A program made the position numbers and the translations under genes. DNA of 64,000 nt from Sclerotinia nivalis (lineage: Eukaryota; Ascomycota; Leotiomycetes; Helotiales; Sclerotiniaceae), in NCBI GenBank assembly GCA_029531795.1, contig JAPEIS010000003.1:1674001-1738000 (forward strand). Reading direction: 5' to 3'. Within the stretch, counting starts at the first letter, position 1. Each line of letters begins with the position of its first letter. The notes beneath the pieces are model-generated. The model was not told the origin of the DNA. It was given only the letters and a program-made list of their open reading frames with translations, and did not search any database. This document shows, piece by piece, positions 12,302 through 64,000 of the stretch.

Positions 12302-14062
12302 ATGCCGACACTCGGATTTTTGAAGAAGAAACGGACGAAGGAGTCTCCGGGTATAACCTCTCCAACATCTAGTCAAGCCACAAGTCCGATAACCCCCACA
12401 TCGTCAAGAGGCTTCCATAACTCAATAGCTTCCATATCTACCCAATCTACTCTACCCCAATCCCACGAGCACGAGGTTCTTCAAACTACAACCTCTCGCA
12501 CAACAGACCAGCCTGCTGCTGTGGGCAAAAAAGCCTCAATGACACAAGGGATAACCCAACAGCAGCAATCTGCGCAAATTCATTCCGATCAACATCAGCA
12601 TAGACAAAACTCCCCAAGTATTAGCAACTTGATTCATCCACCACAGCATGACGGCGCGAGCCAGTCATATCCAACCCCACCAACCTCCTCGCAAACTTCG
12701 CTACATCCTGTAGCTGGTAACACCAGCACACTCCAAATGGACGCCTCGCACCGACATTCCCAGCAATCACAACAGCAGCCACAGATTAGACAAACTAAGG
12801 GCAAATATTCATTGACCGACTTCGAAATCCAGCGCACATTAGGTACTGGAAGTTTTGGGCGAGTTCATTTGGTTCGATCGAAGCACAACCAACGATACTA
12901 TGCCGTAAAGGTACTGAAGAAGGCTCAGGTGCACAAGATGAAGCAGGTCGAACATACCAATGATGAGAGGAGAATGTTGCAAGAAGTCAAACACCCATTC
13001 CTTATCACTCTATGGGGCACATTCCAAGATTCGAAGAATTTATACATGGTTATGGATTTTGTAGAGGGAGGTGAGCTATTCTCTTTACTGAGAAAATCAC
13101 AAGTATGTTCAATGACACCAATTTCTTGATATATACTAATAATTCTTTTCAGAGATTCCCCAACCCAGTAGCCAAATTTTATGCCGCTGAAGTTACATTG
13201 GCCCTTGAATATCTCCATTCAAAACAGATCATCTATCGAGATCTAAAACCAGAGAATTTACTTCTTGACAGGCATGGACATCTTAAGATTACTGATTTTG
13301 GATTTGCCAAGAAGGTCCCAGATATCACATGGACATTGTGCGGGACCCCAGATTACTTAGCACCAGAAGTAGTCTCAAGTAAAGGTTATAATAAGTCTGT
13401 AGACTGGTAAGTTTTGCTACCTTCGTTCCCCTTGCTATCACTTCCTCTCCAGAGCGAAGCGAAAATGCTTTCACGACAGTGGCATAGCGGAGCTTCGTCA
13501 ATTACATCTTCCTCTCTTCATAGTTTCTCTTATGGGGGCAAGCCCCCAAACCCCGTCCTCGCTGCGCTCGATTGAAAACTTAGAAGGTTGTTTACTAACA
13601 TTTCAAATCAGGTGGTCGCTTGGGATATTGATTTTCGAAATGCTTTGTGGTTTCACACCATTTTGGGATGGTGGTTCACCTATGAAGATTTATGAGAATA
13701 TCCTTAAAGGGAGGGTCAAATATCCTCCCTACATTCATCCAGATGCACAAGATTTATTACAACGATTGATCACAGCAGATCTTACCAAGCGTCTTGGCAA
13801 CTTACATGGAGGTTCTGAGGACGTCAAAAATCACCAATGGTTTGCCGAAGTAACTTGGGAAAGGTTATCCAAGAAAGATATTGATGCACCTTATGTCCCT
13901 CCTGTCAAGGCCGGAGTTGGTGATGCTAGTCAGTTTGATAAATACCCCGAGGAAACGGAGATATATGGTCAAGGTGGGCCTGATGAGTAAGTAGAGTTCT
14001 TGAACTTCTTCAAATCTAGACTAATAATGATTAGATTTGGGCACCTATTTGTCGATTTTTAA
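12302..14062 (+). CDS. cAMP-dependent protein kinase catalytic subunit
   Basis: Exons 12302-13102, 13153-13406, 13612-13986 and 14035-14062 give 485 aa. Residues 1-165 are a low-complexity Ser/Thr/Gln extension common in fungal PKA. The AGC kinase core follows: Gly loop GTGSFG (181-186), AVK Lys203, catalytic YRDLKPEN (Asp297), DFG at 315-317, and the activation loop [13 protein letters not shown] with phosphorylatable Thr328. The last 28-nt exon supplies the AGC tail ending in FVDF. It is the effector kinase of the cAMP pathway, held inactive by the regulatory subunit until cAMP binds. In plant-pathogenic relatives it controls growth and infection. Intron 2 is 205 bp against 50 and 48 bp for its neighbours because it holds a GC-rich hairpin repeat. 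The fungal kinase is usually called PKA1 or cpkA; I leave the symbol empty because paralogues exist. Confidence 0.94.
13451..13574 (+). repeat. GC-rich hairpin repeat inside PKA intron 2
   Basis: Two GC-rich pieces sit in an otherwise AT-rich intron. Piece one (13451-13498) has GAGCGAAGCG and CAGTGGCATAGCGGAGC. Piece two (13534-13574) contains the perfect GGGGGC/GCCCCC hairpin (arms 13534-13539 and 13542-13547) followed by CCCCAAACCCC and CTCGCTGCGCTCG. Related motifs recur at 18641-18680 and 22161-22195. Confidence 0.7.
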
Positions 14063-31460: not shown

Positions 31461-34400
31461 TTAGAGCTGTCCATCTAACTCACTATCCATAGGTTCACAA
31501 AGTTCCGTTATGTTGTCCATGGGTTCATCAGAGACATATTCATCATCAGAATTTTCCCATGCTATGATATGGTTAGCATGTTCAAATGGGCTAGAATGCG
31601 ATATCCTACCAGAACCATCGTCTACTTCTTCAACCATATATCTTCTTAAGTGATTCCAGAGATCTAAAATATGTTAGTTGCTTTTTTATTACCAATCGAA
31701 ATGACGTTGACTTACTGTCCATGTTCAACTTGTATCGATCGGCTGCTTGTCCGGGCTCAAAATATTGAAGACAAAGACCAACAACATGCTCGATGTTAAT
31801 CATAACTGTCCTAACGGCTTGCACACGTTGTCGTATATAAACATCTTGTAAATATTCTAAACAAGCGTTGCCCAACCTACGAGTCTGTTCCCGCCTGTGG
31901 TCTGCCAGGTTTTGTTCATTTTCTGGTGATGTATCGTCCTCTTCGACACCGATATTGAAGATAAGTTCTCCAAGGAAATCTTCAGTATCAGATCTGACAG
32001 TGCTTTGGTGATGAGTAAGAAGTGCAGGGACCCATTGAGTAAGTGTAGACAAGACAATCTTTGTAATTTCCTCTTGGGGAATATCGTTGCTATTGCTTTG
32101 CAAAGTGACGAGATCTTTGAAGAACTGAAGATACTCTGATCCATCGTTATTGTCAAGATTAAACGAATTCTTAGCAACATGAAAAGCCATCTCCGGGATT
32201 GCTTTCGGGTTTTCTGAATGCTCGCAATACAATATGGCAGCTCTTAAAAATGGGCCCCACAGTGGTTGACTGTTCCTTCTAATGCCGTGAGTGATTGCAC
32301 AATACATATATTGGTCAAGATCAAGATCGTCCGGATGTGGAAAGTGTAATAGTGTGGCGATAATTAATTTCGTTGCGTGCTGGTTCTGATTAATCATGAG
32401 AAGCTTTTCGGTGAGGATATGGGCCTTAGTCCTCGTCCAGTGGCAATTAATTCTGTTCCTTTCATCAAACGAAAAGGGTATTCTACGATCACCAAGGGAT
32501 AGTTGAAGTCGCGAACTAGATTGATCGATTTCGGCAGCCACCGGGTCGCAAACTGAGATGAGTCGAGCTAAGAGGTCGATGACGCTATCATACGAGACTG
32601 GTCTTTGCATCAAATTCCTCTTGGAAATCGCTTGAAGCATTCGTGTTAATTGAGAATCATTGTCGATCGTATCCGCGCAGATGATATCTATAGCTTTCAT
32701 GAGAAATCCAGAGTCGAGAAGAACTGCTGCCTCGTGATCCCCGAGGTTGGCGATGCTGGCGAGCAAGCCGAAGTATTCAGGCCAAGCCCTTATACTGCTG
32801 TGAAAGTTTTCATATAGTCGGATCAAGGCGGCAACCACATCTTGAAGCAAATTTGGATCGTCAGAACGAACGCGGCCACCATTACTAAGACCGTATGCAT
32901 ATCGTATCCCATTCTTTACCGACAATAAGGCTCCCAGGACTGCAACACCTACCTCTGAACGGACCGTGGCTTCAGGACACTTCAGAAGCAAGAAACGAAA
33001 AGAGTCTGTGCATCTACAAAGGTAGTCAAGAAAGTCCCGGCTGCATTCTCCGCAATATTGGCATTGTGCCCGCAAGGAATTTACGTATGTTCCGAGGTCT
33101 GGGACATCTTTTGAACGTGCGACTACTTGGTCCAGATGACACATTGCAACCCACATGGCTTGCTTTTCGAGTTCGTGCGGGTCTGTGCACTTCCCATTGT
33201 GCAGAAGCTTATTCAGGTGCCTTGTGTTTTCAAACATATTCCGAACGAGGAGGACATGGGCAGGGTCGTGGAGACAATACTTACGCATTACAAGCTCGTT
33301 CTCCAGAGTTATGTGGTTCGCCTGTCGCGGCTCGACAGCTATCTTCAATGGGTTGCGTACCACAGGCTTGTTATTCATGTTTATGCGGCTCCCCTGTAGC
33401 GGATTGACAACTGCCTTCGATAAAATTTCATTCTCCTCTTTGGCCAATTCGTCGTTTGCGACGGTCAATGTGGAAGAACGTTGATAAAACAACATATAGG
33501 CACTAAAGTTCTTTTCAAACGGGATGTTATCAATAGTCCCATGCTCAAGGCCACCAAAGCAGGCTGACTCCATGAAGCCTGGCTCCCAAGAAGTTACCGA
33601 GTCATCATTGAACTCCACCCAATTTTCTTTGCCACCAACTTGTGGCCGCTCTCGGATGTAAGAATAGTAATGGCCAGTTTCTGCTGTTCCAGAATGGACA
33701 AGAACGCCGACAAGCTCAAACATATCCTCTTCAACTTCACCTGATTCGTTCATGAGGTATTCAACCTTGTAAGGCCGCATGTCTATCGATGGTGGAAATG
33801 TAAAGTGGTCGTTGATCTTACTACGTGTCATTGTGCGGAGATTGTAATCGAATCTTTTCAAATGAAAGATCAAATTATCCGGCACATCCGTGAGACACGC
33901 CCGTTTGACTGCATTGACATGACGATCACAAGCCTCGCATTTGTACTTGTTTTCCCCTTCCATGGCTTCGCCCTCGACATATGCCTGCAGACTATCTTGG
34001 AGGGATTTTTTCCCCTTGATATCACATTGAATGGCGGAGAAGTCTTCTAATCTCCCTGAGATATGAGGGCATTCTTGCGACTTGATCTGCTGTACCAATT
34101 TGCCTCCATAAAATGATCGAACTTTGCGTTTGTCATCGTCTGTTAAATTTTCACGTTCGAAACGATCGAAGAGAAGGTTGTAAAACTCGTCAACATCCAT
34201 TTGGACGGTGACATCAATCTCAGTCTCCTCAAAAGTTGTAATAGACGCAGCAAAATTAGTTGGATCGATGAATCGCTGCATACTATTTTGCATGAAAGAA
34301 AACAATTGTTGAGTCTCAATGAGTAGCTTTTGCGAACCTGGAACAGTGATATGTGAATGGAGAATGAACTCCCTAAATGACAAATTCATGAATAGCTGCG

Positions 34401-61003: not shown

Positions 61004-63216
61004 TTAAGACTTAGCAGCCTCCAACTCCAGCTCCAATTGTCTAATTCTTTCACTCTGATCACCAGGACCAACTCTCATCTTCAATGTATCAACCTCTTGA
61101 GTCAATAGACCAATTTTCTCCGTTTGTGCTGTGATAGTTTTGGTTTGAGCTTCCAAAAGTTTCTTGATTTCTTCTAGGGAATCTTCGACGCCAGCTGCAG
61201 TTGGGGATAATTGAGGGGCACCAACGGCGGAAATAGGTCCAGAAGAGGTAGGGATGGCGGCTGGAGTAGGCTTTGCTGCGGGCTGGAATGATGTTGGTGT
61301 TGCTTGAGATACAGGAGATGGCTTTGGTGGTGCAGTTTTGGTTGAAGCGACGTTAACTGGTTCTACCTTTGCTGCAGCTGGAATTGATTTTTGAATTGGC
61401 CTTTGAATCTCTTCAAAGCTAGAATTATCATCGCCGTCATCCTCATCGTCATCTTGGAACTTAGAAGCCATAGCAGAAATGGAACCTTTTTGCTCGGACA
61501 TGGTTGGTGGAGTTGCTCTTTGTACCATTGGAGCTGGTTCAGGCTCTGCCTTAGGTGGTGCTGTCTTTGTTAGGGGTGGGTTTGGCGCCGGTGCAGCGGT
61601 GGGTGGTCTATAATCAGCTGGCACTTCAACTGGGGCATTTCCTTCATATACACTTTCCAAATCGATCTTGGCAGGAATTCCATCTTTACCAGCGAGCCAT
61701 TCCTCGGCAGTAACCGCAGGTTTCAAACCGATAGCAGGTGGGTAAATATCAGATTGGAAGACTTCGGCTCTTCTAGGAACTGTGAAAGAGATAGGTTCAA
61801 CATATTGGTCGTTGACGGTTTTGAATGCCTTCATAACTTCGTTCTCGTGAACCTGTATTTTCGTCAGAATAGATATGCGAAAGACATAATGACAATCACT
61901 TACATTAATACCACGTCTTGGGAGGAATGCAAGACCACGTTGTTGATCACTAGACTTGTATTCGGATAAGAATTCGAACTTGTCGTTCTCATATTCATAG
62001 TATCGAATGTTGCCATCACTGAAACGAGTTAGCTAGTTTTCCGGTGACATCTGCCAATCGACTTACCCTTTGCCTGCCAAATACAAACATTGTGTTCCAT
62101 CATCTAAGTCAAATTAGCAAAGATCAACCAAAATCAGTTAATGTAGCCCACCCCAGAATGGCATGCAAACACCCGAGATAGAGTCTAAAACGGTGAACCC
62201 GCCAATTGGTTGTTTGGCATTACCAACATCCCACAAAGCCAATTGACGATCGCTCATCTTGGAGAATCCGGTAGTAGCCACACGATTGTGTTCTCCCATC
62301 CATACAACTCTGCTATTCTTTGCGCCAGTATGTCCAGGTCCTTCATGTGCGGGTCTTTCTTGTCGAGTATCCCAAATACGTAACTTCTTGTCACGAGAGG
62401 TGGTAGCCATAAGAGCTCCATTTGCGCTCCATGACAAACTTTGTACAATATCTCCGTGCTTCAATGTCAAAGCTGCCTTCCCAGTGCCTACATCCCATAG
62501 CTTGACCGTGTAATCGCCAGATGCGGATGCGAGAATGTTGTTCGCGGCGGGGTTGAATAGAACTTGTCCGACTTTCCTGCAGGTTGTTAGAATCGATTAG
62601 AACTTTCTGTATAGCTGGCACATACCTAGAATGTCCTGCCAATTTGCTGACAGGCGCAACATCGACAGGTTCTTCAGAATCCTGATAAAGAGAAAAGCCC
62701 TGAGGAACCTCCCATATAAATACCTTTCCGTCATCAGATCCAGAAGCGATAATGCGATCGTTGAAAGGATTCCTAATTCAAAAGTGAGATTTTGTTCCAT
62801 CTGCCACACATTGAATACTCACCAATCTGTATCAAGGACAGGTCCAGTATGACCTCGAAACAATGGGATTTGTTCTGGCAGGCGTCCTTTCTCATTCAAA
62901 GGAATAACAGCGAATGCGCCTCCACCACTAGCTTCCCAATTGACCGAAAGATATTCAGGATTGGCCTATTTCGATGATGAGCTACCTTATTCCTTCATTC
63001 TATATCACTTTCCAAAGTATTTGGTATCCCACCTTGATTAAATTGGTATCCCATGCATTGCGACTGATATGTAAGTTATCGTAACATGCCTCCTTCTTCG
63101 ATGATTTACCAAAGACATGTCCTATTTTCTCGTCAGCCATTGCTCTCGTGCCTCTTTCTCGCGATATTGTAACAAGGCTTACGATATTTCGACGCGCGCA
63201 CAAAACGACCTGCCAT
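61004..63216 (-). CDS. coronin, actin-binding WD40 protein
   Basis: Eight exons read from the minus strand: 63216-63183, 63121-63033, 62965-62823, 62772-62626, 62576-62152, 62103-62067, 62018-61904 and 61852-61004. They give 612 aa. The start MAGRFVRASKYRHVFGKSSK is the classical coronin N-terminus that binds F-actin. The seven-bladed WD40 propeller follows (SGSDDGKVFIWEVP; ASASGDYTVKLWDV; ATTSRDKKLRIWDTR; RQLALWDV), with the conserved extension DGNIRYYEYENDKF and GLAFLPRRG. A Pro/Ala-rich unique region and a C-terminal leucine-heptad coiled coil (LEEIKKLLEAQTKTITAQ ... ERIRQLELELEAA) mediate Arp2/3 binding and oligomerisation in yeast Crn1. It regulates branched actin at endocytic patches and hyphal tips. 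All introns are 48-67 bp. Confidence 0.93.
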
Positions 63217-63853
63217 CTGAGCTCATGCAAAGGATTTGAAAGAAGAAGAAGAAGGTAGTGAGTTATTGAATGTAATTAAGAATGTTGAGGAGGGTTGTCA
63301 AAAAAGAATGTTTTTGTTTCGTTTTGTTGTTGATTTTGTTATTTCCGAGTTTATGCGAAGCTCATCCAAAAAGTCTTGATATCAAGATGCTATCAGTAAC
63401 TTTTTGAATTACCTTGTAGGCTGGCTGTAGGTAAGAAGTGGTGAAACTCAAACTCAATCTCTAGACGCGAGGCTTTTGCTGTGTTGCAGCTTAACAGTTT
63501 ATTAGTAGTTTTTACTTGCTGCGCCCGCCAATGGTTACGGGTTGGTTATAAAGTCTACTACAAAGGGAAATCACGGCCCGTGTCAAATCAATATTATCTC
63601 AAATTAGGAGATTAGGAGTTCCTTATTTGATATTTTCTTTGTTCCAACCCCTTTTCGATAATTCATTATGTTACTCCGTATGTTCGTTCATGATTGCATT
63701 AATTTTATCTATTCCATACCAAATATGGAGTACAAGTTCATATGCTTTGAACCCACCTCGTCAATCCCACTTTCCGCCACATAAATCCCCACTTTATTTG
63801 AAGCACAACTTAGGAATATATTCACACATTTGGTTCACCCGTCAACAATAATA
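63217..63853. other. spacer between coronin and tRNA-Val
   Basis: It contains the coronin 5' leader and promoter, with GAAGAAGAAG at 63243-63252. No gene is supported; the 3' part is AT-rich with CAACAATAAT just before the tRNA. Confidence 0.5.
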
Positions 63854-64000
63854 GGCCGGATGGTGTAGTTGGTTATGTGAGTAAACACTTCTCTCTATCT
63901 TATTTCTCTTCTACAGTTACTAATATCTTTACAGCACGTATGCTTCACAACATCTCAGCATGTTTAACGCATAAGGTCCTGGGATCGAACCCCAGTTTGG
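63854..64000 (+). tRNA. tRNA-Val(CAC), interrupted by two introns, 3' end cut by the window
   Basis: Acceptor 5' arm GGCCGGA (63854-63860), linker TG, D-arm GTGTAGTTGGTTAT then CAC after removal of 63877-63934. The anticodon stem is TATGC (63939-63943) with GCATA (63969-63973); the loop starts TTCACA, giving anticodon CAC (63946-63948). The canonical intron is 63950-63967 (18 nt, after position 37). Variable loop AGGTC, T-arm CTGGG-ATCGAAC-CCCAG, and five of seven 3' acceptor bases TTTGG follow. An A box (TGGTGTAGTTGG) and a B box (GATCGAACC) are present. The last two acceptor bases, discriminator and terminator lie beyond the window. Confidence 0.87.
63877..63934 (+). other. 58-bp spliceosomal-type intron inside the tRNA D-arm
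   Basis: The insert begins GTGAGT, has TTACTAATATC 11-18 bases before its end and finishes TTTACAG, the same donor, branch and acceptor words used by protein-gene introns in this window. It splits the D stem after T22. Removal gives GGTTATCACG, the usual Val D-arm. No run of four T occurs inside, so RNA polymerase III would not be stopped early. It is not at the anticodon-loop position used by tRNA endonuclease, and a separate canonical intron is present. Confidence 0.72.

Follow-up and report, generated by a model that had tools for sequence, protein, structure and literature searches.

The tRNA-Val(CAC) gene at the end of the stretch of Sclerotinia nivalis DNA analysed here (64,000 nucleotides, hereafter the window; bases 1674001-1738000 of contig C3, in a genome of 50.3 Mb and 31 contigs) is very probably a functional nuclear gene interrupted by two introns of different kinds, one in the D arm that would be removed by the spliceosome and one in the anticodon loop that would be removed by the tRNA endonuclease. 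A second valine isoacceptor gene, tRNA-Val(TAC), is built in the same way, and no uninterrupted reader of GUG was found in the searches made. The original prediction that two splicing machines may mature this tRNA is upheld as the best reading of this locus, the splicing itself being deduced from the sequence. One protein encoded in the window has as its best match a protein named Sclerotinia trifoliorum (96% identity over 87% of the query), which by itself makes a fungus of the Sclerotiniaceae probable; a 5.8S search gave a match only below the cut-off.

The gene occupies the last 147 bases of the window, whose edge severs it. Beyond position 64000 the contig continues with TCA, the last 3 bases of the tRNA, and then with TGTTTCTTTTTG; a T5 run follows the body. 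The complete gene has 150 bases, and its body ends at contig base 1738003. The TCA completes an acceptor stem of 7 standard pairs (3 of them G-U), and the failure of the acceptor arm to pair, which the original prediction would have taken as the mark of a pseudogene, is not seen once the sequence is extended to the T5 run. All features lie on the plus strand. A TATA-like element, ATATATT (63816..63822), is found 38 bases upstream of the body, which opens with the 23 bases of exon 1 (63854..63876; tRNA positions 1-22), the same in 9/9 valine tRNA genes found. Box A of the polymerase III internal promoter, TGGTGTAGTTGG (63861..63872), and box B, GGATCGAACCC (63982..63992), 109 bases downstream of box A, both match the consensus. 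Between tRNA positions 22 and 23 stands a GT-AG intron of 58 nt (63877..63934), with the 5' splice site GTGAGT (63877-63882), the branch word CTAAT (63920-63924, within ACTAAT), whose presumed branch A at 63923 lies 11 nt before the intron end, and the 3' splice site ACAG (63931-63934). Exon 2 (63935..63949; positions 23-37) contains the anticodon CAC (63946-63948) and is followed, after position 37, by a canonical anticodon-loop intron of the tRNA endonuclease type (18 nt; 63950..63967) and by exon 3 (63968..64000), which runs from position 38 onward to the body end 3 bases beyond the window. With both introns removed the tRNA would measure 74 nt.

Since the exon before the D-arm insert ends in T, the intron begins with G and ends with G and the following exon begins with C, the boundaries of this intron cannot be slid. 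The coordinates originally proposed for the start of the body and for the insert, and the length of 18 nt given for the canonical intron, proved exact on re-reading, and the GTGAGT, ACTAAT (about 11 nt from the end) and ACAG words attributed to the insert are all present. The absence of a T4 run from the insert, also part of the original prediction, is confirmed by a gene without any run of four or more T, and the claim that removal of the insert restores a valine D arm is borne out by the first 27 bases of the tRNA, which after excision are those of the uninterrupted tRNA-Val(AAC) genes.

The single tRNA-Val(TAC) gene found in the genome (C12:779555-779707, minus strand) lies on a different contig and carries a 55-nt insert, GTAAGT...CACTAAT...ATAG, at the same 22/23 position, with its branch A 12 nt before the intron end and, in addition, an anticodon-loop intron of 24 nt. 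When the interiors of the two D-arm inserts were compared, with 6 bases trimmed from the start and 18 from the end, an alignment equally good or better was obtained for 439 of 1000 shuffled pairs. The common position together with unalike interiors points either to an old shared intron or to two separate gains, which suggests, as alternatives, an ancestral intron of which only the splice words have been kept and independent insertions at one site. The recent intron capture envisaged in the original prediction is not favoured by two isoacceptor genes with inserts at the same position and interiors no more alike than shuffled sequence.

Both genes have the marks of intact tRNA genes. In the spliced CAC and TAC tRNAs every pair of the acceptor, anticodon and T stems is standard, and D-stem pair 13-22 is unpaired in 8/8 valine tRNAs aligned, five of which were typed in as reference sequences; between the CAC, TAC and AAC isoacceptors the anticodon stem differs on both of its strands, and such two-sided changes are the pattern of functional genes. 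The polymerase III signals comprise box A, box B and a TATA-like word starting at -38 (CAC) or -43 (TAC), and a T5 run begins 6-7 bases past the tRNA body in each gene. A TATA-like word between -43 and -32 is found in 4/7 tRNA-Val(AAC) genes and in the TAC gene, and none is present in the 60 bases scanned for the remaining 3/7. The TAC intron contains one T4 run and the CAC intron none. In 4/7 AAC genes T4 runs precede the first longer T run of the 3' flank, so that T4 appears to be a weak polymerase III stop here, a conclusion that the flanks suggest but do not show for this genome.

Seven tRNA-Val(AAC) genes, one tRNA-Val(CAC) gene and one tRNA-Val(TAC) gene make up the nine valine genes recovered. 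A query of 18 bases of exon 1 gave nine exact matches among the matches listed (100 of the 115 with at most three mismatches), its backward sequence giving 119 matches at the same limit. A query for the 5' half spanning the junction, again with at most three mismatches, found the seven AAC genes and two other places with 2 and 3 mismatches, which are taken as chance (backward control, 3 matches); a query for the 3' half found nine places, namely the same nine valine genes (control, 0); and a DNA search in which the CAC and TAC sequences served as queries without their introns returned ten rows, all in these nine genes. An intronless tRNA-Val(CAC) gene elsewhere, which had been named as a possible sign of a pseudogene, did not turn up in the count of such genes: neither the 5' pattern nor the 3' pattern nor the DNA query found an uninterrupted tRNA-Val(CAC) or tRNA-Val(TAC) in the genome. 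Valine tRNAs of yeast and human gave no match to the genome, a result that is uninformative, and a GUG reader of very different sequence may have escaped these searches.

The inosine-34 of tRNA-Val(AAC) decodes U, C and A and not G, so that GUG (63 of 380 valine codons, counted over 14 of the 22 open reading frames listed) needs a tRNA with the anticodon CAC or UAC. None of the seven AAC genes has a D-arm insert; five contain an anticodon-loop intron of 18-19 nt and two contain none, their bodies being otherwise identical. Position 58, an A in nearly all tRNAs, is T in all seven (T loop ATCGTGC) and A in the CAC and TAC genes. The junction GGTTAT-CACG, proposed at the outset as a diagnostic read, does not serve that purpose: all seven AAC genes encode GGTTAT-CACG, the junction word GGTTATCACG, and informative reads must therefore extend into the anticodon stem, where TATGC is specific to the CAC and ATCCC to the UAC tRNA.

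The D-arm inserts have the form of the genome's own mRNA introns. On both strands of the window there are 5 segments of the design GTRAGT...CTAAY...YAG within 45-80 nt; in 100 windows simulated with a Markov-1 model the count averaged 0.94 and rose to 5 at most. Since at least one simulated window reached the same count, the number of segments is by itself no argument, and the argument lies in their position: under a simple model the chance of such a segment is about 7e-6 per place, and the chance that two different genes both have one at a single given position is about 5e-11. The four other segments of the window (48, 48, 52 and 54 nt) are in or beside long open reading frames. Removal of those at 1825, in a gene for a putative ZIP-like transporter, at 13987, in one for a putative PKA-like kinase (whereupon the last residues FGHLFVDF appear), and at 62066, in a coronin-like gene by its predicted product (YLAGKGDGNIRYYEYEND), joins frames that are otherwise stopped, and these three, judged by their frames, are clearly mRNA introns. 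At 31715, in a gene resembling that of a ubiquitin peptidase, the frame without splicing reads through the segment and meets a stop shortly downstream, and the joined frame continues, making this segment probably an mRNA intron as well. It is this company of four segments of the same design that gives the tRNA insert the look of a native mRNA intron. Compared with the features of U2-type introns, for which the branch word is CTRAY, both inserts have ends that agree with the host consensus (GTGAGT...ACAG in CAC, GTAAGT...ATAG in TAC), both have CTAAT near the 3' end, and their lengths of 58 and 55 nt are suitable, slightly above those of all four window examples, the only ones available, which come from a motif search confined to 45-80 nt.

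Whether an agent other than the spliceosome might remove the inserts bears on one competitor of this account, namely that the tRNA splicing endonuclease cuts them as it cuts the odd-position introns of archaea and a red alga, which we consider very unlikely. Position 22/23 is indeed used by archaeal introns according to passages of a tRNA intron review (PMC4090602). The archaeal-type bulge-helix-bulge, taken as a central helix of 4 bp flanked at the splice sites by two bulges of 3 nt, plus an outer helix, is not found at the inserts in exact register (central helix 1/4 in CAC and 2/4 in TAC, outer helix 1/3 in both), and slid registers bring the central helix to 3/4 (CAC) and 4/4 (TAC) with the outer helix at 1/3, values that lend the endonuclease some support. 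The two anticodon-loop introns, used as a control, have central helices of 0/4 and 2/4 and outer helices of 3/3. Since these ordinary introns also lack a full central helix, the structural comparison, with its outer helix of 1/3 against 3/3, speaks only weakly against the endonuclease; the splice and branch words speak against it more strongly, for cleavage by the endonuclease would leave GTRAGT, CTAAT and AG in both genes unexplained. The same words weigh against the proposal, the least credible of those considered, that the insert stays in place and gives a tRNA with an oversized D loop, which works as such or has some other use. The D stem is indeed able to close around the insert, but a D loop longer by 55-58 nt is far beyond known cytosolic tRNAs, and there would be no reason for splice words to be kept in both genes.

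The disabled copy that the original prediction offered as its dull alternative would require both genes to be pseudogenes hit by inserts and GUG to be read by another tRNA. According to PMC4090602, eukaryotic tRNA genes with short inserts in the D arm are for the most part presumed to be pseudogenes, and the assembly or the searches may miss an uninterrupted gene; nonetheless, the pattern and DNA searches yielded no uninterrupted CAC or TAC gene, both tRNA bodies are fully paired in three stems and keep their promoter words and T5 runs, and two pseudogenes are hardly expected to have both preserved flawless splice and branch words in the same place. With inosine-34 of tRNA-Val(AAC) unable to read GUG, the two genes are the only GUG readers found, and since their bodies also pair well the pseudogene explanation is disfavoured and looks very improbable. 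There is even less to recommend a variant in which the spliceosome does remove the introns from a precursor made by polymerase II or from a longer, overlapping mRNA-like transcript. Spliceosomes mostly act on capped polymerase II RNA, which is the attraction of this idea, but it does not sit well with two unlinked loci that share the tRNA position of the intron and each have box A and box B along with a T5 run near the 3' end, nor with the fact that removal of the intron restores a tRNA.

General tRNA-finding tools gave mixed results on these genes. A valine tRNA covariance model, in the building of which both genes had been included, aligned the unspliced CAC and TAC genes end to end and placed the inserts at the border of D loop and D stem, at most 2 bases from the GT-AG junction; because the D stem is able to pair with the insert retained in the loop, an unspliced precursor would not by itself lose the cloverleaf. 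ARAGORN read the intron-free forms as tRNA-Val with the anticodons CAC and TAC. With introns allowed, it read the half-spliced CAC form as Val(CAC) and missed the unspliced one, and took the unspliced TAC gene for tRNA-Leu and the half-spliced form for tRNA-Ser. When run on the window and the loci it did not report the CAC gene, a failure that is not specific, as it also read the plain AAC gene of locus L004 as Leu. The minimum-free-energy folds of the intron-free CAC and TAC forms are not cloverleaves and were set aside. Rfam scans of the window and its flanks called no tRNA, and they missed the plain tRNA-Val(AAC) of L004 too, so that this negative carries no weight. A genome search with the tRNA family, in which 63 of 2986 candidates were scored, gave 62 rows that included none of the nine valine genes and was not used for tRNA counts. 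Within the same scored set, tRNA matches of equal score recur about every 4.48 kb, with 13 rows on C24 and 9 on C25; the two copies of this repeat that were read are tRNA-Ala(TGC), a comparison of two units gives 99.3% identity over 4.4 kb (L085, C24:1-9000), the unit has no stop-free stretch of at least 120 codons in the standard code, and the repeat is possibly mitochondrial-like.

No third interrupted tRNA of this kind came to light among the places tested. At 123 places in the genome (68 + 55), GTAAGT or GTGAGT stands 1-9 bases after box A; of these, 13 rows belonging to two repeat-like families were dropped and 110 were tested for a T arm and acceptor (2 valine, 108 others). Both valine genes scored 17/17; three of the 108 others reached the threshold, with 13/17 (L092, L104 and L161), and, at that score only, were judged to be chance and set aside as candidates, so that no further tRNA with GTRAGT just after box A was found among the 110 places tested. 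By pattern count, box A is followed by GTATGT at 59 places in the genome. Nine similar 27-base words on several contigs (e.g. C5:2665169), probably a dispersed repeat, mimic box A plus GTAAGT, and another repeated sequence, beginning GATGGTGTTGTTGGTTCTTCTTCCCGTGTG, occurs on four contigs (C16:870819, C19:63142, C20:53684 and C21:64254; L050-L053). The interrupted gene had 0 matches in viral and prokaryote contigs, and an uninterrupted control word likewise had 0 in viral contigs, so that these scans say nothing on conservation.

Among known systems, the nearest parallel is offered by U6. Some basidiomycete yeasts have mRNA-type introns in their U6 snRNA genes. Passages of PMC10484740 describe such an intron in the polymerase III transcript of fission yeast U6, near the catalytic nucleotides and thought to stem from reverse splicing, and thereby support the precedent invoked in the original prediction. 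The single U6 snRNA match of the present genome (C1:7073134-7073240, L088) matches the family over its full length in 107 bases, which indicates a U6 without an intron. The valine genes resemble those U6 genes in having an mRNA-type intron inside a polymerase III transcript, but U6 is part of the spliceosome, and the host RNA here is not a catalytic component of that machine but tRNA-Val, in two isoacceptors. Spliceosomal introns of fungal nuclear rRNA genes are likewise mRNA-type introns in a structural RNA, although their host is a polymerase I transcript and not a tRNA; a title cited in PMC11782384 refers to them.

With canonical eukaryotic tRNA introns, which lie at 37/38 and are cut by the Sen endonuclease, the CAC and TAC genes have in common that each also holds one (18 and 24 nt), whereas their D-arm introns differ in the 22/23 position, in the spliceosomal splice and branch words and in the poorer outer helix. 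The eukaryotic D-arm tRNA introns accepted in passages of PMC4090602 are those of nucleomorphs and a red alga; there, archaeal and red-algal introns are tied to bulge-helix-bulge motifs, the introns of Guillardia measure 3-24 nt, and the main text has no word starting 'spliceosom'. The valine genes share with archaea, Cyanidioschyzon and nucleomorphs an extra intron in the D arm, and 22/23 is among the archaeal positions given in those passages, but the inserts described here are 55-58 nt long and have GT-AG ends with a branch word. A spliceosomal intron in a tRNA gene was not found in the open-licence literature, among the matches listed (titles and abstract openings), and a report elsewhere is possible. 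What would be new is to meet an mRNA-type intron in a polymerase III gene for tRNA, a kind of RNA for which none has been found reported.

Read from the signals in the DNA, transcription and the splicing itself, its order and its agents would be as follows. Polymerase III would transcribe tRNA-Val(CAC) from box A, box B and the upstream TATA-like element and stop at the T5 run; the spliceosome would cut out the 58-nt D-arm intron in the nucleus, using the 5' site at 63877, a lariat at A63923 and the 3' site at 63934; RNase P and tRNase Z would trim the ends of the precursor, which would be exported; and the tRNA splicing endonuclease and a ligase would remove the 18-nt intron after position 37. 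The tRNA-Val(UAC) precursor, having the same build, would take the same route, and if it is matured likewise this fungus cannot translate GUG unless the spliceosome has spliced its tRNA. A 5' exon as short as this one (23 bases plus leader), and presumably uncapped, is unusual for spliceosomal recognition; this very short first exon and the T4 run in the TAC intron are the main difficulties of the spliceosomal account.

We think it likely, on the whole, that every cytosolic GUG-reading tRNA of this lineage is made only after spliceosomal splicing, that the spliceosome directly controls the decoding of a sense codon and that a single polymerase III transcript is handled by two unrelated RNA-splicing machines, one after the other. 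If true, this would be, to our knowledge and as far as the searches go, the first nuclear tRNA for which a requirement for the spliceosome is demonstrated. It would show that the spliceosome can work on polymerase III transcripts even when the first exon is very short, and would provide a clear example, outside U6, of a polymerase III RNA with mRNA-type introns. Interrupted tRNA genes of this type are easily overlooked, as illustrated by the CAC gene that ARAGORN did not report (the program also misread a plain AAC gene), and their existence makes it testable whether introns spread into abundant small RNAs, for example by reverse splicing. Splicing of tRNA and splicing of pre-mRNA are taught as separate processes; the two would be linked if the only tRNAs found to read GUG contain a spliceosomal intron.
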